From the NCBI RefSeq assembly GCF_020150815.1, contig NZ_CP083723.1, forward strand, positions 2,728,001 to 2,792,000: a stretch of DNA of 64,000 nt, read 5' to 3'. Below the pieces are notes generated by a model. The model was not told where the DNA came from, did not search any database, and worked only from the letters and a program-made list of their open reading frames with translations. Source of the DNA: Haloprofundus salilacus. Lineage in GTDB: Archaea; Halobacteriota; Halobacteria; Halobacteriales; Haloferacaceae. Positions 5,050-20,775 of this stretch are shown piece by piece. How positions within the stretch are numbered: position 1 is the stretch's first letter; every line of letters begins with the position of its first letter. A program made the translations under genes and the position numbers.

Positions 5050-5838
5050 ATGACCGACATCAGGACCGGATTCGTCACGCAGACACACACGGGCGACGTG
5101 ACTGCCTCCGAAGCCGTCGAACAGGCCGACACGTTCGGCTTCGACTTTCTCGAACTGTACATGGACGGCGCGACCGAGCGCCGCAGACTGGACCGCGAAT
5201 CGTTCGTCGACGCCGTCGAAGACGCAGACCTCGCTTTACTCGTCCACCTGCCGTTCGTCGACTTGGACCTCGGAACTCCGCGCGACGACGTTCGGGACGC
5301 CGCGCTGGCGGAACACCGCGCGTGTCTCGACGCGGCCGCGGAGATGGGCGCGGAGAAGGCCGTCCTCCACGCGAGTACGCACGCGACGTACCCCGAGTGG
5401 GACGCCGAGACGACCCACCCGCGGATGCTCGACGCGGTGCGCCAGTTGGACGACCACGGCGGAGAAGTTGGCGTCGAGGTGTGCGTCGAGAACCTCCCGG
5501 GCGTCTCGTTCACCGTCCACGAGTTCGACCGCGTCTTCGAGGAGACCGACGCGTCGATGACGTTCGACACGGGCCACGCCCGCGTCGACGGGATGGACGC
5601 CGATGCGTCAGCGGCCTTTTTAGACGACCACCGCGACCGCGTCTCGCACGTTCACGTCAACGACGCCCGCGGCGCGAAGGACGAACACGTCCCGACCGGG
5701 TCGGGCACCACGGAGTTCGAGGCGATTCTCGCGCCGCTTCTCGACGACTGGACGGGAACCGTCTCCGCGGAAGTGTACACGTTCGACGCCGACTACCTCG
5801 AACTCAGCAAACGAAAACTGGACGAGGTTCTCGCCTGA
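5050..5838 (+). CDS. Sugar phosphate isomerase/epimerase (AP2-type TIM barrel)
   Basis: 262 residues from the ATG at 5050 (MTDIRTGFV). This is a xylose-isomerase-like TIM barrel with acidic and histidine metal ligands: FLELYMDG, VHLPFVDL, LHAST, VCVENLPG, MTFDTGHA and VSHVHVNDA. The E/D/H set is the usual site for a divalent metal in AP2Ec-family isomerases. The substrate cannot be told from sequence. Only 2 bp separate its stop from the next gene, a CDP-glycerol glycerophosphotransferase, so the two are probably co-transcribed. Confidence 0.82.
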   Translation: MTDIRTGFVTQTHTGDVTASEAVEQADTFGFDFLELYMDGATERRRLDRESFVDAVEDADLALLVHLPFVDLDLGTPRDDVRDAALAEHRACLDAAAEMGAEKAVLHASTHATYPEWDAETTHPRMLDAVRQLDDHGGEVGVEVCVENLPGVSFTVHEFDRVFEETDASMTFDTGHARVDGMDADASAAFLDDHRDRVSHVHVNDARGAKDEHVPTGSGTTEFEAILAPLLDDWTGTVSAEVYTFDADYLELSKRKLDEVLA

Positions 5839-5840
5839 GA

Positions 5841-7217
5841 ATGCGGGACGAGGGGTCGCCGCCCGAGGGAGTAGCGGGCGGACGCGACGCATTCGAGACG
5901 AGCGAAGCCGACGAGTGCGGCGACGCCGACGAGCGCGACGAGGCTGAAGAGTGCGGCGGGACTGGCGAAACGAGCGTAATCGACGAAACGAGCGATGAAC
6001 GGGCCGGGAGTCGGACGGACAGTCGGAGTCGCCCCCGGCGGTTGCTCTACTACGTCTCGTTGTTCTTCGAGGCGGTCGCCGTCGCCGTCGTCGGTGCGGT
6101 CACGCGGCGCGTCGGCCGCGACGACTCGCTGTGGGTGTTCGGCGCGCGCGGCGGTACCGACTTCTGCGAGAACAGCAAGTATCTCTACCTCTCGGTCGCT
6201 GCCGACAAACCCGACGTGCGGCCCGTCTGGGTGACCAAAAATCGAGCGATCGTCCGCGAACTCCAGGCGCACGGTTACGAGGCGTACCACGCGTTCTCGC
6301 CGCGCGGTATCTGGCTGCAACTCCGCGCCGGAACCGTCTTTCTGACCCACAACCTCAAGGACGTGAACCGCTTCGCCGTCGGCGGCGCGACGCTCGTGAT
6401 GCTGTGGCACGGCGTCCCACTGAAGCGCATCTCGTGGGACGCCGAACTGGCCGAACGCCCCCGACCCGTGCAGGCGCTCTCGCGCTACCTCTACGACCAG
6501 TACGACCTCGTCTCGCTCACCGGGTCGGGCGCGCGCGAGGCGTTTCGGACGGGATTCGGTCTCCCCGACGACAGACTGGTCGTGACGGGCTATCCGCGAA
6601 CTGACGTGTTCTTCGAGTCGGTTCCGGGCGCGACGCTCTGCACCGACGAGACGGAGTTGGACCGAATCCGGCGACTCGCCGACGACCACGACGTGTGGCT
6701 CTACATGCCGACGTTCCGTGAGGACCCGTCGGCGCAGGCGTCCGAGCACGTCGACTTCGCGGCGCTCGACGCAGTGTTGGCCGAGCGCGACGCCTACCTC
6801 GTCGTCAAGCTCCACCCGAAGGAGCGACTGGACGCCGATCTCTCGGCGTTCGACCGCCTGCTCGAACTCCCCGCAGGCGTCGACGTGTATCCACTCCTGC
6901 CGGCGACGGACGGCCTGATTACCGACTACTCGTCGGTGCTGTTCGACTACCTGCTGCTCGACAGGCCGGTGATTCGATACGCGTACGACCTGGAGGTGTA
7001 CCGCGCCGAGCGGGGGTTCTACTATGACTACGAGGAACTGTCGCCCGGCCCGACCGCGCGGGAGTTCGACGAACTACTCGACGCGCTGGCGACGGCGCTC
7101 GACGGCGACGACGACCACGCGGCCGAGCGTCGCGCCGTTCGCGACCGGTTCTTCGACGAGAACGGCGGCGGCTACGCTGACGCGGTGTACGAGGCGGTGA
7201 GAGAGCTACGTGGCTGA
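5841..7217 (+). CDS. CDP-glycerol glycerophosphotransferase family protein (TagB/TagF-like)
   Basis: 458 residues. The first ~65 are an acidic linker of low complexity, followed by a hydrophobic or amphipathic patch (LLYYVSLFFEAVAVAVVGAV) likely to bind the membrane. The catalytic part shows the TagB/TagF signatures: WHGVPLKR (catalytic-type histidine), TGYPRTD, VVKLHPKE and ITDYSSVLFDYLLLDRP. Family members transfer glycerol phosphate, or another polyol phosphate, from a CDP-activated donor to wall or surface polymers. The donor and acceptor in archaea are unknown. It follows the TIM-barrel isomerase by 2 bp, with a glycerophosphodiesterase and a nucleotidyltransferase fusion downstream. Confidence 0.85.
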   Translation: MRDEGSPPEGVAGGRDAFETSEADECGDADERDEAEECGGTGETSVIDETSDERAGSRTDSRSRPRRLLYYVSLFFEAVAVAVVGAVTRRVGRDDSLWVFGARGGTDFCENSKYLYLSVAADKPDVRPVWVTKNRAIVRELQAHGYEAYHAFSPRGIWLQLRAGTVFLTHNLKDVNRFAVGGATLVMLWHGVPLKRISWDAELAERPRPVQALSRYLYDQYDLVSLTGSGAREAFRTGFGLPDDRLVVTGYPRTDVFFESVPGATLCTDETELDRIRRLADDHDVWLYMPTFREDPSAQASEHVDFAALDAVLAERDAYLVVKLHPKERLDADLSAFDRLLELPAGVDVYPLLPATDGLITDYSSVLFDYLLLDRPVIRYAYDLEVYRAERGFYYDYEELSPGPTAREFDELLDALATALDGDDDHAAERRAVRDRFFDENGGGYADAVYEAVRELRG

Positions 7218-7386
7218 CAGTCGACCGAAAGATAGAGAACAGCGTGCGAATGAGACCGGGTGTGAACCGGGATGGCGGGTCGTGGCGGCCGAAACGCTCC
7301 GGAGATATATTGTTATCTAGTAGAGGTATGTATATGAACGGAGATAGTTTGATGTACATGACGGTACACACTTCGAACACGAACGC

Positions 7387-8343
7387 ATGGCACAGCTAGC
7401 AGGACAGGCAACGACGGTCGAAACGGAGGCTGACGTGTCGCTCATCGCTCACCGCGGGTTCGCGGGCGTCTACCCCGAGAACACGCGGGCGGCGTTCGGG
7501 CGCGCGGTCGGCGTCGATGTCGAAGGGACGACGATGACGCCGCAAGCCGACGTCGTCGAACTCGACGTGATGCCGACGGCGACGGGGGAAGTCGTCGTCT
7601 TCCACGACACCGAACTCGGCCGTCTGACGAACGCGCCGACGGCGCTGGCCGACCGGAAAGTGTGGGAGACGCCGTACGAGACACTCCGCAGATTTGACGT
7701 ACTCGGTACGGGCGAGTCGGTGCCGCTGCTCGGCGAGATACTCGACCTGATTCCGCTGGACGTCGGCGTCAACGTCGAGTTAAAGAACCCCGGTGTCGAG
7801 GACGTTCACTACGGCGCGCTCGACGCCGGCGAACTCGACGCTCGGTGCGAGGTGTGGGAGCCGTTCGTCGAACGCACGCTCTCGGTTCTGGCCGACCACC
7901 CCCACGAGACGCTGGTGTCGTCGTTCCACGAGGGAGCGCTCGCCGCCGTCCGAGAACTGGACGCCTCGGTCCCCATCGCGACGGTGTTCTGGGACGATAT
8001 CGAAGCGGGCTTTCGCACCGCCAGACGACACGACTGCGAAGTGCTGCACGTCCCGTGGAACATGGTGTACGGCACCGAACTGTTCAACGCCGACTACCAC
8101 GCCGGACCGTTCGACCCGGTAGATCTCGTCGACATCGCCCACGAGGAGTGCCGTCGGGTCAACGCGTGGACCGTCGAGAGTTGGTATCAGGCGGACCAGC
8201 TCCGGCAGGCGGGCGTCGACGGAATCATCGCCGACTACCCGAACCTACTACACTACGGCTCGAAGCGGTCAGAACGCCCGAAGGCGACCGACGCGGCACC
8301 GGCGAACCAGCAGCCGAACTCGCCGGACACGTCGGTCCGGTGA
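7387..8343 (+). CDS. Glycerophosphodiester phosphodiesterase
   Basis: 318-residue GDPD-family TIM barrel that hydrolyses glycerophosphodiesters to glycerol phosphate and an alcohol. Seen: IAHRGFAGVYPENT (catalytic His-Arg and metal Glu), the ELDVM strand, VVFHD with the second catalytic His, NVELKNP and the C-terminal VNAWTV and DGIIADYP strands. No signal peptide is present, so it acts in the cytoplasm. It lies 169 bp after the glycerophosphotransferase, and that gap contains an AT-rich promoter-like patch (atatattgttatct) near 7305-7318. The C-terminal ~25 residues are a disordered tail. Confidence 0.9.
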   Translation: MAQLAGQATTVETEADVSLIAHRGFAGVYPENTRAAFGRAVGVDVEGTTMTPQADVVELDVMPTATGEVVVFHDTELGRLTNAPTALADRKVWETPYETLRRFDVLGTGESVPLLGEILDLIPLDVGVNVELKNPGVEDVHYGALDAGELDARCEVWEPFVERTLSVLADHPHETLVSSFHEGALAAVRELDASVPIATVFWDDIEAGFRTARRHDCEVLHVPWNMVYGTELFNADYHAGPFDPVDLVDIAHEECRRVNAWTVESWYQADQLRQAGVDGIIADYPNLLHYGSKRSERPKATDAAPANQQPNSPDTSVR

Positions 8344-8449
8344 ATGGTCATCGACGACGTAGGTCGCTATTCGACGACTTACTTCTGCATTTTTAATTCC
8401 AACTAGTATTAATCCTCATTTATTGTCCCGGCCGTGGTACACACAGAGA

Positions 8450-9973
8450 ATGACATTTCCGAATAGTGCAGTCATTCTCGCTGCGGGCATCGGTTCTCGA
8501 CTCCGACCGATCACGCTTCGCAAGCCGAAGTGTAGCGTCACCGTCGACGGCACGCCGATTCTAGAGTACCAACTGCGCGCATACGCCGAGGCGGGTCTCG
8601 ACGAGGTAGTCGTCGTCGCTGGTTATCTGAGCGAAAAGACGCGGGCGCTGGCCGAGAGCATCGCCGCCGACTACGAGGAGTTCTCGGTCACCGTCGTCGA
8701 AAACGAGGTGTACGCCAACACGGACAACATGTACTCGCTGTCGCTCGTCGAACCGCTCCTCGACGGCGAGTCGTTCTTCCTGAGCAACGGCGACGTGGTG
8801 TTCGAACCCGAGGTGGTCGAGCAACTAGCGGCCGTCGACGGCGACAGCGCCATCGCCTGCGACACCTCGCTGTTCTCCGAGGAGGCGATGAAGGTGACCG
8901 CCGACGAACGCGACTGCATCTCGGGCATCTCGAAGGAGCACACGAGTTCCGAAGCCCACGCGGTCTCCATTGACGTGTATCGGTTCTCCGAGACGTTCTC
9001 GGCGGCGTTGTTCGACGAGATAGAGCGCAGCGTCGAACAGCACGGCGAGTACGGCGGGTGGACCGAGCTCGCCATCGACCGACTGCTTCAGAGCGGCCGC
9101 TTCGACGTCGAACCCGTTGACATCGCGGGAGCGCGCTGGGTCGAAATCGACAACCTCGACGACCTCGCGGAGGCCGACCGGCGGTTCGCGTCGCTGGGCG
9201 ACCTCGGCGAGAAGCGGGCGGTCTTCTTCGACCTCGACGGGACCGTCTACCTCGGCGACGAACTCATCGGCGGCGCGGCGGAAGTCGTCGCCGAACTCCG
9301 CGAGGCGGGCGTCGACGTGTTCTTCCTCTCGAACAACTCCTCGCGGTGGAAACCGGGCTACGTCGAGAAACTCCGGAAACTGGGCATCTCGGCGACGCCG
9401 GAGTCAGTCATCCTCTCGACGGACGGCGTCATCGACTACCTCGAATCGGTCGGCACCGACGAAACGTACGTCGTCGGCACCGAGGCGATGCGCGACGCCC
9501 TTCGTGAACGGGGGTTCGCCGCCGAGTCCGATGACCCGACGCACGTCGTCGTCGGCTTCGACACCGAACTCACCTACGAGAAAGTTCGCCGCGCGACGCT
9601 CGCGATCAACAACGGGGCCGAGTTCATACTCGCACACCCGGACGCGGTCTGTCCGACCGACGAGGGACCGATTCCCGACTGCGGTTCCATCGGCGCGCTG
9701 GTCGAGACGGCCGTCGGTCGCCCGCCGGCGCACGTCTTCGGCAAACCCAGTCCACAGATGCTCCTCCCGACGATGGAGGAGTACGGCTACGAACCCGAAG
9801 ACGTGGTCGTCGTCGGCGACCGACTCGAAACCGAGCTCAGGATGGCCGACCGAATCGGCTGCGAGTCCGTCTGCCTGCTCACCGGCGACGCGGACCGCGC
9901 CGACGTCGAGGCAAGTGACATCGTCCCGTCGTTGGTCGCGCCGTCGATAGCGACGCTCTCGGAGTTCCTCTGA
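8450..9973 (+). CDS. Nucleotidyltransferase / HAD-IIA phosphatase fusion
   Basis: 507 residues from the ATG at 8450; a TTG at 8423 is in frame but less likely. Domain 1 (about 1-245) is a sugar-phosphate or choline-phosphate type nucleotidyltransferase: AVILAAGIGSRLRPIT, the KPKCSVTVDGTPIL lysine, the NGDVVFEPE metal aspartate and WVEIDNLDDL. Domain 2 (about 255-505) is a NagD-like HAD: FFDLDGTVYLGD, SNNSS, FGKPSP and VVVGDRLETEL. The motif IV aspartate pair is D...E rather than D...D. It could make a CDP-polyol after or before a phosphatase step. Substrate unknown; the neighbours point to glycerol phosphate chemistry. Confidence 0.83.
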   Translation: MTFPNSAVILAAGIGSRLRPITLRKPKCSVTVDGTPILEYQLRAYAEAGLDEVVVVAGYLSEKTRALAESIAADYEEFSVTVVENEVYANTDNMYSLSLVEPLLDGESFFLSNGDVVFEPEVVEQLAAVDGDSAIACDTSLFSEEAMKVTADERDCISGISKEHTSSEAHAVSIDVYRFSETFSAALFDEIERSVEQHGEYGGWTELAIDRLLQSGRFDVEPVDIAGARWVEIDNLDDLAEADRRFASLGDLGEKRAVFFDLDGTVYLGDELIGGAAEVVAELREAGVDVFFLSNNSSRWKPGYVEKLRKLGISATPESVILSTDGVIDYLESVGTDETYVVGTEAMRDALRERGFAAESDDPTHVVVGFDTELTYEKVRRATLAINNGAEFILAHPDAVCPTDEGPIPDCGSIGALVETAVGRPPAHVFGKPSPQMLLPTMEEYGYEPEDVVVVGDRLETELRMADRIGCESVCLLTGDADRADVEASDIVPSLVAPSIATLSEFL

Positions 9974-10024: not shown

Positions 10025-10735
10025 ATGTCACGAACGGTCGTCATCGCCGGTGTCGGTCCCGGTCTCGGCGCGTCGGTCGCCAGACGCTTCGTCGACGAGG
10101 GCTGTCGAGTCGCGTTGTTCGCGCGGAGCGAGTCGTACATCGACGACCTCGCCGAAGAACTGAACGACGACGACGGGGACAACGGGGGCGAGGCGCTCGC
10201 AGTTCCGACGGATCTCGCTGACCCCGAATCGATAGAATCGGGGTTCGAGACCGTCCGGGAGGCGTTCGGTCCCGTCGACGTGCTCGTCAACCACGCCAGC
10301 GGCGGGTCGTGGAAAGGGCTGCTCGAACTCTCACTCGAGGAGTTCGAGCGGGCGCTCGACGTAAGCGCCCGCGGCGCGTTCCTCTGCTCGCAGGAGGCAG
10401 TCGGGGACATGCTCGACGGCGACGGCGGAACGGTCATCTTCACGGGCGCGACGTCGGCAGTTCGGGGTCGCGGCGGCGCGCTCGCGTTCTCGTCGGCGAA
10501 GTTCGCCGCCCGCGGGATGGCACAGTCGATGGCCAGAGAACTCGGACCGCGGGGGATTCACGTCGCACACGTCGTCATCGACGGCGGGATTCTGCCCCCG
10601 ACTCGCGAAGTCGAGAGTCCCGAAAAGTATCTCGACCCCGACGCCATCACCGACAGCTACTGGCACCTCGTCGAACAGGACGAGAGCGCGTGGACGCTCG
10701 AACTCGACTTACGCCCGCACGTCGAGGAGTTCTAG
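10025..10735 (+). CDS. Atypical short-chain dehydrogenase/reductase lacking the catalytic Tyr
   Basis: 236-residue Rossmann protein: GVGPGLGASVARRF for NAD(P) binding near residue 9 and NHASG after strand 4. The usual YxxxK is FSSAK here (F155 to K159), inside LAFSSAKFAARGMAQSMAREL, followed by GIHVAHVVIDGGI. Phe for Tyr in this position is typical of a small group of SDR-like proteins and suggests altered or absent dehydrogenase chemistry. Its role is unknown. The 3' remnant of a different, classical SDR lies immediately downstream. Confidence 0.85.
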   Translation: MSRTVVIAGVGPGLGASVARRFVDEGCRVALFARSESYIDDLAEELNDDDGDNGGEALAVPTDLADPESIESGFETVREAFGPVDVLVNHASGGSWKGLLELSLEEFERALDVSARGAFLCSQEAVGDMLDGDGGTVIFTGATSAVRGRGGALAFSSAKFAARGMAQSMARELGPRGIHVAHVVIDGGILPPTREVESPEKYLDPDAITDSYWHLVEQDESAWTLELDLRPHVEEF

Positions 10736-10767: not shown

Positions 10768-10959
10768 GTGCTCGTGACCAGGGACGTGCCGATACTCGGC
10801 TCTGTGAGCGAACCGGAGTTCACGAAACAGATCCCGGCAGGACGCTCCGACCAACCCGAAGACGTCACCGACGTGGCGCTCTACCTCGCCAGCGACCTCT
10901 CGAACTCCGTCACCGCCGAGTCCATCGTCGTCGACGGCGGCCTGTCGAACACGCAGTGA
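10768..10959 (+). pseudogene. 3' remnant of a classical SDR gene
   Basis: 63 codons that encode only the C-terminal end of a classical SDR: EPEFTKQIPAGRSDQPEDV, then ALYLASDLSN and ESIVVDGGLSNTQ before the stop. No cofactor-binding or catalytic segments precede it, and the region in front is the end of the neighbouring atypical SDR in another frame. It is best read as a truncated gene left after a deletion. A GTG at 10768 marks the start of the open stretch, but no functional product is expected. Confidence 0.72.
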
Positions 10960-17596: not shown

Positions 17597-18484
17597 TCAG
17601 TTGCCGGTCCAGCGAAGCAGCGCCAGCGTCCCCTCGAAGAGGAATATCATCGTGACGGCGACGATGATCGGTGCCATCCCCGTCGGGTCCGGCGTCGCGA
17701 TGAAGGAGATACCGGCGAACGCGCCCCAAAAGAGGAGGCGCTTGTCCTCCATCCAGAGACGGGTGACGAGGTTCATCATCACCGCGAGCATGATGAACAG
17801 CGGAATCTGGAACACGATGGACATGTACGCGGTCAGCAGGACGATGAGGTTGAACGTGTCCTTCAGCGCGAAGGCGACCTCGACGGCCCTCGTCGTGTAC
17901 ACCGTGAAGTAGTCGAAGACGAACGGGAGGACGAGGAAGTGCGAGAACGCCGCGCCGACGACGGCGAGGACGAGACTCGTGGGAATTGCCGCGAGGTAGT
18001 AGCGGCGCTCTCGCGGATAGAGACCGGGGCGCATGAACCGGTACGTCTCGTAGACGAAGATGGGGAGGCCGACGATGACGCCCGCGAGTCCGGCCACCTT
18101 CAGTTCCGTGAGGATGAGTTCGAGCGGTCCGTAGACGTGTGGGCGGTTCTGCGCGGGGTTCGGGATGTACGACCCCCAGAGGTAGTTGACGAGGTCGGCG
18201 GCGAACGGGTACGCGACGAGCGTCGCGATGCCGCCGAAGAGGAAGACGACGCCGAGTCGGCGCATCATCTCCTCGATGTGTTCGGTGAGCGGCATCTCCT
18301 GGTCCGACGCCGGACCGTCGCCGAAGATGCCGCCGTCGTCGACGTGTTGCTCGTCCGGCGCGGGAGACACGGTGTCGTCGGTCTCCGGTGTCGCAACGTC
18401 GGCGTCAGCCGTCTCTGATGACTCGACAGTGGAGTCCGTGGACACCTCGGAGAAGCCGGGCGTCGAGTTCGCTTCCTCGCCCAT
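17597..18484 (-). CDS. tatC: Sec-independent translocase subunit TatC (haloarchaeal TatCo)
   Basis: 295 residues. The first ~65 residues form an acidic cytoplasmic extension that is usual in haloarchaea but absent from bacterial TatC. Then come the TatC hallmarks: MPLTEHIEEMMRRL with the conserved glutamate, six membrane helices, PRERRYYLAAIP after helix 2, and SFIATPDPTGMAPI near helix 5. It recognises twin-arginine signal peptides, the main export route in haloarchaea. It diverges from the fused TatC gene at 18586, and the 101 bp between them must hold both promoters. Confidence 0.94.
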   Translation of the reverse strand: MGEEANSTPGFSEVSTDSTVESSETADADVATPETDDTVSPAPDEQHVDDGGIFGDGPASDQEMPLTEHIEEMMRRLGVVFLFGGIATLVAYPFAADLVNYLWGSYIPNPAQNRPHVYGPLELILTELKVAGLAGVIVGLPIFVYETYRFMRPGLYPRERRYYLAAIPTSLVLAVVGAAFSHFLVLPFVFDYFTVYTTRAVEVAFALKDTFNLIVLLTAYMSIVFQIPLFIMLAVMMNLVTRLWMEDKRLLFWGAFAGISFIATPDPTGMAPIIVAVTMIFLFEGTLALLRWTGN

Positions 18485-18585: not shown

Positions 18586-20775
18586 ATGTCTAGCGCGCTC
18601 GACGAGGATACCCGCCAGACGCTCTCGGAGGGGCGGGAAGCGGCCGGCGCGATGTTGCGGTCGGCCCAGAAAGACCTCCAGAAGGTATTCATCGTCTTTC
18701 TCATCGGTTTTCTCGGGACGTTCTACGCGCTCCAACTGTGGGTCTGGGAGTTCCTGAAGAACGTCACGGAGGCGCGGATGAATGCCGCGACTGCCGAGAA
18801 CGTCCGTTTCATCGCGCAGACGCCGTTCGACGTCATCCTCCTGCAGGGGAAGATAAGCATCGTCGCCGGCATAATCGTCGCGCTGCCGATATTCGTCTTC
18901 TTCTCGCGCGACGCGCTCCGAGAGCGCGGCGCGTGGCCACAGTCGCCCGTCAGTCTGTGGAAGCTCGTCGTCCTCGGACTGATGGCGGCGGCGCTGTTCT
19001 TCGCTGGTCTGGTGTACGGCTACTCGCTGTTCTTCCCGATAATGTTCAAGTTCCTCGCGGGCAACGCCATCTCTGTCGGCTTCGCCCCGCGCTACTCCAT
19101 CGTGAAGTGGGCGCAGTTTATCTTCCTGCTCACGCTCTCGTTCGGCTTCGCGGCCCAGATGCCGCTGGCTATCACGGGGCTGTCGTACAGCGGTATCGTC
19201 CGGTACGAGACGTTCCGCGACAAGTGGCGGCACGCGGTCGTGCTCATCTTCGTTTTCGGCGCGTTCTTCTCGCCACCAGACCCGTTCACCCAGATTATGT
19301 GGGCCGTCCCGCTTCTGGTGCTCTACGGCGCGAGCCTCTACCTCGCGAAAGTCGTCGTCACCGCCAAGCGCGGAAGCCAGCAGATAAACCTCCGGCGGAC
19401 CGTCCGCTCGCAGTGGAACGTCGTCCTCGGGTTCGCGGTACTGTTCGCCGGGACCGTCAACGCGTTCTACAGCTACGGCGGCGTCGACCGGTTGAACCGA
19501 GCGCTGGCGTGGCTCGGTAGCAGTTACCGCGTGGTGCCGGTCGCCGAACAGCTCCCGTACGCTGGGGAGACGACGATCCTCGTCTACTCCGCCGTCGCGG
19601 GCGCCGTCGGCCTGACTCTCGGCATGCTGTACGGCGTCTACCGCGACATCGAAGCGACCGCCGGATCGCAAGTGGGCGGCCGAGCGGGAGAGCCAGCGGC
19701 CATCGACCTCACGGAACTTGACGCGGCGGGCGTCCGCGCGGCCCCGCCGGAGGCGTTCGCCGATCTCACCGAAGACGAGGCGATGGCCCACGCCGGCGCC
19801 GCCATCGACAACGACGACAACGCGAAGGCGCAGGCCATCCTCGACCGCTTCGACGAGGCCGAGGCGACCCGCGACGAGGAGCCGGAGAGCCAAGACGGCG
19901 TCAGCGTCGTCAACGACGACGTGGGTGACAGAGCGTCGAGAGCCAGCGGCACGCTGTTGGAGGGACTCACCGACGGCGAGCGCGACGAGGACGACATCGG
20001 CGGCTACTACAAGGACGTGGCGTTCATCCTCGACAGCCTCCGCTCGCGGTCGTTCCTCATCATCGGTTGGTTCATGCTCGTCCTCGCGGGCACGTTCGCG
20101 TGGCTGTACAGCGGGGGTATCGGCGATATCTACGAGGGCTTCCTCTCGCAGATGCCCGCCGCCTTCGACATCGACCAGGTGAACGTCATCACGCTGCACC
20201 CCGTGGAGGCGCTCATCTTCGAGGTGAAGTTCTCGACGCTCGTCGCCGTCATCGCGACGCTGCCGCTCCTGGCGTACTTCGCGTGGCCCGCCCTCCGCGA
20301 CCGGAACCTCGTCCGCGGCCACCGCAGCGTCATCTTCGGCTGGGCCGGCGTGCTCCTCGCCGGCCTCCTCGGCGGTCTCTACCTCGGGTACAACTACATC
20401 GCCCCGGCAGTCATCTCGTATCTGGCCGCCGACGCGCTGGCGGCGAACGTCGTCATCAGCTACCAGATCACGGATTTCTTCTGGCTCATCTTCTTCACCA
20501 CCGCCGGTATCGGCATCCTCGCGGACATCCCGGTGTTGATGGTGTTGCTCAACACCATCGGTCTCTCGTACCGCCGGATGCGCGGGCGCTGGCGGGAGGT
20601 CACCGTCGGACTTCTCACCGTCGCGGCGCTGTTCACCCCGGCGGACATCATCACGATGTTCATGGTAACGATTCCGCTGATGGTCGCCTACGGCATCGGC
20701 ATCGCCCTGCTGTTCGTGCTGACGCTCGGCGGGCGGCGCGACCTCGCCCCCGCACCCGGAACGAGCGACGCCTGA
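18586..20775 (+). CDS. tatC2: Fused double TatC translocase (haloarchaeal TatCt)
   Basis: 729 residues from the ATG at 18586. Two TatC domains lie in tandem: domain 1 at about 20-330 (FIVFLIGFLGTFYALQLW, the degenerate GFAPRYSIVKWAQF loop, then FSPPDPFTQIM) and domain 2 at about 480-720 (RSFLIIGWFMLVLAGTFAW, LFTPADIITMFMVTIPLMVAYG). An acidic, probably cytoplasmic linker of about 120 residues joins them, with extra hydrophobic segments. This 14-segment fusion is known only in haloarchaea, where it works with TatA-type subunits and is essential. The diverging tatC gene encodes the partner translocase. Confidence 0.93.
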   Translation: MSSALDEDTRQTLSEGREAAGAMLRSAQKDLQKVFIVFLIGFLGTFYALQLWVWEFLKNVTEARMNAATAENVRFIAQTPFDVILLQGKISIVAGIIVALPIFVFFSRDALRERGAWPQSPVSLWKLVVLGLMAAALFFAGLVYGYSLFFPIMFKFLAGNAISVGFAPRYSIVKWAQFIFLLTLSFGFAAQMPLAITGLSYSGIVRYETFRDKWRHAVVLIFVFGAFFSPPDPFTQIMWAVPLLVLYGASLYLAKVVVTAKRGSQQINLRRTVRSQWNVVLGFAVLFAGTVNAFYSYGGVDRLNRALAWLGSSYRVVPVAEQLPYAGETTILVYSAVAGAVGLTLGMLYGVYRDIEATAGSQVGGRAGEPAAIDLTELDAAGVRAAPPEAFADLTEDEAMAHAGAAIDNDDNAKAQAILDRFDEAEATRDEEPESQDGVSVVNDDVGDRASRASGTLLEGLTDGERDEDDIGGYYKDVAFILDSLRSRSFLIIGWFMLVLAGTFAWLYSGGIGDIYEGFLSQMPAAFDIDQVNVITLHPVEALIFEVKFSTLVAVIATLPLLAYFAWPALRDRNLVRGHRSVIFGWAGVLLAGLLGGLYLGYNYIAPAVISYLAADALAANVVISYQITDFFWLIFFTTAGIGILADIPVLMVLLNTIGLSYRRMRGRWREVTVGLLTVAALFTPADIITMFMVTIPLMVAYGIGIALLFVLTLGGRRDLAPAPGTSDA

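Follow-up and report, generated by a model that had tools for sequence, protein, structure and literature searches.

A co-inherited haloarchaeal gene cassette that probably attaches an activated phosphate alcohol to a cell-surface lipid or glycan

The 64,000-nucleotide stretch of the nearly complete Haloprofundus salilacus genome analyzed here (contig NZ_CP083723.1, positions 2,728,001 to 2,792,000; referred to as the window) raises the question of what four neighboring genes at positions 5050–9973 do together in an archaeon. A preliminary description of this DNA had reported four co-directional genes, and this was confirmed: all are in frame on the forward strand, with Pfam scores far above the curated cut-offs. 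They encode a TIM barrel protein of the xylose-isomerase-like type, a putative sugar or sugar-phosphate isomerase/epimerase (5050–5838; AP_endonuc_2, PF01261, 108.7 bits), a predicted TagF-like cytidine diphosphate (CDP)-polyol phosphotransferase (5841–7217; Glyphos_transf, PF04464, 234.7 bits against a cut-off of 22.1), a cytoplasmic glycerophosphodiester phosphodiesterase, GDPD (7387–8343; PF03009, 89.9 bits), and a nucleotidyltransferase-HAD fusion (8450–9973; NTP_transf_3, 58.3 bits; Hydrolase_6, 87.3 bits; Hydrolase_like, 58.3 bits). Families were assigned by the Pfam curated cut-offs together with NCBIfam profiles. None of the four proteins reached an NCBIfam equivalog cut-off, which rules out naming any of them by exact function. 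This small cassette probably uses cytidine triphosphate (CTP) to activate a small phosphate alcohol, which is then attached to a lipid or glycan of the cell surface, in a teichoic-acid-like manner but via a two-in-one activating enzyme.

The preliminary description had staked its proposal on co-conservation of the genes across haloarchaea, and co-conservation was found in a set of 292 genomes of the same class as the source. The fusion was present in 21 genomes from 8 genera, and a strong PF04464 gene was found in 21 of these 21 (table 21/0/24/247; Fisher p ~7e-20). Since the genomes are related, the genus-level figure is safer: PF04464 occurred in 8/8 genera with the fusion and in 13/69 others (p ~1e-5). 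The fusion was full length in 20 haloarchaeal genomes and was represented by two separate matches in one (G255). Close orthologues of the TIM barrel protein, defined by at least 60% identity, were detected in 16 of the 292 genomes, every one a fusion genome and every one at the cassette. GDPD adjoined in 19 and TagF in 18 of the 21 fusion genomes. The four genes thus form a real unit, and their linkage is far above chance.

Gene spacing and order were then compared. The stop codon of the TIM barrel gene and the start codon of the TagF gene are 2 bp apart in the window. The TIM barrel gene is coupled to TagF in one set of genomes (gaps of 2, -14, and -16 bp) and to the fusion in another (-4, -1, and -8 bp). 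It lies upstream of TagF in the family of the window, either 2 to 80 bp away or overlapping it; Halorussus-type genomes have it downstream of the fusion, with overlaps of 1 to 8 bp in five of the stop-start pairs. In two genomes (G146 and G024), TagF is located beside its old neighbors and GDPD-fusion-TIM elsewhere, and both halves are kept. In the TagF tree, the fusion-linked TagF proteins cluster (81/96), the sole exception being a solo member from genome G225 placed among them. The fusion label requires two changes on this tree, and none of 500 shuffles gave a number as low. That solo gene starts 4 bp after a metallophosphoesterase-like gene (L132:5868–8133 for this place) in a genome without the fusion, and GDPD is not adjacent to it.

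The four genes might still be independent housekeeping genes that are neighbors by accident. Gaps of 106–169 bp precede GDPD and the fusion, which suggests separate promoters, and GDPD paralogues are present in many of the genomes. This explanation is already contradicted by the co-occurrence data, and coupling in differing gene orders and retention after the cassette was split leave it hardly credible.

The activating step would be carried out by the fusion protein, whose gene starts with ATG at 8450, a TTG also being present at 8423. Residues ~1–250 form a COG1213/LicC-like cytidylyltransferase and residues ~256–507 a HAD-IIA phosphatase/phosphotransferase. The G13xG15xR17 motif, K27, D261/D263 and K432 and D457 of the HAD domain were invariant in the aligned set. 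The N-domain belongs to the COG1213/LicC type by its nearest CTP enzymes and its invariant GxGxRLxP...K motif. The HAD domain belongs to HAD-IIA, scoring 126.9 bits for TIGR01460 (cut-off 100.15) and having the DxDGT, K, and GD motifs. The best PDB matches of the N-domain were 1jyk (LicC, the top solved-structure match), 6pd1 (PntC, a fused nucleotidyltransferase that acts on aminoethylphosphonate), and 4jd0 from T. maritima. The last is termed inositol-1-phosphate cytidylyltransferase in PMC12275187, and the N-domain was about equally close to all three enzymes. All three use CTP with phosphates other than hexose phosphates, and they are the nearest solved relatives of the N-domain. Possible roles of the HAD domain are the trimming of a bisphosphate, phosphate transfer, and the hydrolysis of a competing substrate.

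TagD (TIGR01518) was above the cut-off in 0 of the 292 genomes and was not found in any fusion genome at E<=1e-10. Where PF04464 occurs but the fusion does not, TagF commonly adjoins, and often overlaps, a stand-alone nucleotidyltransferase relative (~30–37% identical where aligned; gaps of 0, -4, and -11 bp). The simplest interpretation is that the nucleotidyltransferase makes the CDP donor for TagF. One stand-alone NTP transferase and CDP-glycerol glycerophosphotransferase pair, at 7146–9182 of locus L116 on a Halorussus aquaticus plasmid (NZ_CP100401.1), is surrounded by glycosyltransferases, polysaccharide lyases, and an ABC transporter.

The fusion might instead activate a non-polyol compound, such as phosphoglycerate, a phosphocholine-like compound, inositol phosphate, or a phosphonate, which the TagF-like enzyme would add as a lipid head group. 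The near-equal distance of the N-domain to LicC (phosphocholine), PntC (aminoethylphosphonate), and the inositol-1-phosphate enzyme is consistent with this, and 2-phosphoglycolate phosphatases belong to HAD-IIA. In addition, CDP-glycerate destined for the head group of a sphingolipid is the product of a COG1213 enzyme, CpgD (PMC12275187). We nevertheless consider such a cargo rather unlikely, as PF04464 members of solved structure either transfer glycerol or ribitol phosphate or polymerize capsules, and the GDPD of the cassette better suits a glycerol or polyol phosphodiester.

The transfer of a phospho-polyol would fall to the TagF-like protein, encoded by the one PF04464 gene of the H. salilacus genome. 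It has a charged N-terminal tail of 70 amino acid residues, and around residues 69–87 there is a hydrophobic segment, which is also found, with varying strength, in most of its relatives. It aligned with S. epidermidis TagF (E 1.8e-30) and with TarL (E 9e-23). H190 and H325 match H444 and H584 of S. epidermidis TagF, positions altered in mutant crystal structures, and this catalytic histidine pair, together with the profile score, places the protein in PF04464. The resemblance to the catalytic domain of the TagF polymerase and to TarL, along with the hydrophobic segment, would fit a stronger form of our interpretation, in which a true teichoic-acid-like poly(polyol phosphate) is present on the haloarchaeal surface and this protein is its polymerase. 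However, the single-unit enzymes TarF and TarB match the protein likewise, the NCBIfam equivalog cut-off was not reached, and the cassette contains no linkage-unit or exporter genes, so that a polymer seems unlikely. As a single-domain enzyme, the TagF-like protein could, from its sequence, add one unit or many.

The family membership of GDPD was supported both by the PF03009 score and by the catalytic H/R/E/D/H set. Residues H22, R23, E58, D60, H73, E131, and K133 are conserved, and the catalytic set is invariant in 18 cassette copies. No obvious signal peptide was found in these 18 copies; a GDPD paralogue elsewhere in the H. salilacus genome begins with a twin-arginine-type leader. A cytoplasmic GDPD and the presence of several phosphoester enzymes in one cassette might also point to a soluble glycerophosphodiester, a solute resembling diglycerol phosphate, that is made and turned over and is not an envelope component. 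This is highly improbable, because the acceptors of the TagF family are in the membrane and a hydrophobic segment lies near the N-terminus of this protein; the enzymes known to produce soluble phosphodiester solutes are CDP-alcohol phosphotransferases, not PF04464 enzymes.

In the TIM barrel protein, the predicted active-site residues E147, D173, H176, and E241 are conserved. The name sugar-phosphate isomerase given in the preliminary description is no more than a guess at family level. A sugar-related role is favored because a paralogue of this protein is encoded beside a gene that, judged by eye, resembles PfkB-type sugar kinases.

Taken with the co-inheritance, these features make it reasonably likely that the cassette is a dedicated route for CTP activation of a small phospho-polyol and its transfer to a cell-envelope acceptor. 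The fusion N-domain would form a CDP-alcohol from CTP and a phospho-alcohol of non-hexose type, the likeliest candidates being glycerol phosphate and other short polyol phosphates. The HAD-IIA domain may remove a phosphate from the same small molecule or move one onto it, and the TIM barrel protein may supply or isomerize the precursor. The membrane-associated TagF-like enzyme would then take the phospho-polyol off CDP and place it, at the cytoplasmic face, on an acceptor that is either lipid-linked or a glycan, and the cytoplasmic GDPD would cleave misplaced or surplus phosphodiesters and recycle the unit. The earlier proposal that the genes make, polymerize, and recycle a glycerol phosphate unit was therefore well supported for the activation and transfer of a phospho-alcohol, through co-conservation and the nearest CTP relatives, while "glycerol phosphate" and "polymer" go beyond these observations.

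Several observations weigh against this dedicated route. Of the fusion genomes, 5 have no TIM barrel gene at the locus and 2 have no GDPD there. COG1213 enzymes take phosphosugars, phosphocholine, phosphoglutamine, and phosphoglycerate (PMC12275187), and because of this diversity family membership does not fix the substrate of the fusion. Divergent full-length fusions (~32% identical) from another halobacteriotal family (L125:8961–10481, L126:6048–7550, and L127:1254–2756) have no adjacent TagF, showing that the fusion can occur without it; their G-loop is altered to AANDNxQLRP, and glycosyltransferase-like genes are located nearby. No dedicated polymerase pair, exporter, or glycosyltransferase was found within the cassette. 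AlphaFold models built from shallow alignments (pLDDT 58 for the fusion and 50 for TagF) were too poor and were not used for fold searches.

Chemistry of the teichoic acid type belongs mainly to the study of bacteria, and TagD produces the best-known donor of glycerol phosphate in it. As in the TagD/TagF pathway of Gram-positive wall teichoic acid, a cytidylyltransferase would feed a PF04464 transferase with conserved catalytic histidines. The cassette differs from that pathway in that its cytidylyltransferase is COG1213-like and fused to HAD, with TagD below the cut-off throughout the genome set, and in the addition of a TIM barrel protein and a cytoplasmic GDPD; linkage-unit and export genes of the wall teichoic acid pathway have no counterpart in the conserved cassette, to which this comparison was confined. 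LicC, a CTP:phosphocholine cytidylyltransferase, acts on phosphocholine and, unlike the fusion, has no HAD domain. A search for bacterial nucleotidyltransferase-HAD fusions returned only separate HAD-IIA or nucleotidyltransferase matches.

In the pneumococcal type 23F capsule locus, wchX (putative glycerol phosphotransferase), gtp1 (glycerol-2-phosphate dehydrogenase), gtp2 (nucleotidyltransferase), and gtp3 (phosphotransferase) stand side by side (PMC3493582). This CDP-2-glycerol pathway may be analogous to the cassette, going by gene descriptions and not by sequence: the line-up is similar, with two of the activities fused here. The cassette has GDPD and the TIM barrel protein in addition, and it has no conserved reductase, the nearby SDR genes being non-orthologous. 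It is conceivable, although very unlikely, that haloarchaea build a teichoic-acid-like surface polymer of polyol phosphate from achiral CDP-2-glycerol made by a single bifunctional cytidylyltransferase-HAD enzyme, which would keep the envelope unit apart from the archaeal glycerol-1-phosphate lipid pool. CpgD of Caulobacter is likewise a COG1213-type cytidylyltransferase that acts on a three-carbon phosphate and feeds an anionic envelope lipid, but its product is CDP-glycerate for ceramide diphosphoglycerate, a bacterial sphingolipid; no HAD fusion is mentioned, and the transferase step (CpgA) is uncharacterized (PMC12275187).

Among archaea, Methanobrevibacter ruminantium has PF04464 genes annotated for teichoic acid synthesis (PMC5816558), and archaeal teichoic-acid-synthesis gene annotations for this species are also on record in PMC7772410. 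Public genomes already carry family-level annotations for single genes of the kinds found here. No published account of such a haloarchaeal cassette was found in the open-access papers searched, which is weak evidence as most subscription papers lie outside that search. The occurrence in archaea of so compact a set of co-inherited genes, in which the activating enzyme is a fusion unlike TagD, points to an anionic component of the envelope, as yet undescribed, in several families of haloarchaea, and it yields short, testable enzyme and knock-out predictions.

Downstream of the fusion, an SDR-family oxidoreductase gene (10025–10735, forward strand; PF00106, 133 bits) is a variable neighbor outside the core. 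It was considered as a fifth cassette gene, with 13 loci at first, and was rejected because the cluster mixed unrelated SDR groups: the protein is orthologous to the SDR of one congener only, and SDRs at similar positions elsewhere are 24–33% identical. The C-terminal remnant of a second SDR follows in another frame at 10774–10959; over 62 residues it shares 81% identity with a full-length SDR found at this place in a congener (L054). A phosphonate reading of some non-fusion loci, where decarboxylase-like and aminotransferase genes lie beside the pair, failed on sequence inspection. Some non-fusion and f8 loci have ABC transporters nearby, but these do not form one operon with the fusion cassette and were not used as evidence. 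Farther along the window, two divergent genes at 17597–18484 and 18586–20775 look TatC-like by eye, and the second is long enough for a doubled TatC.

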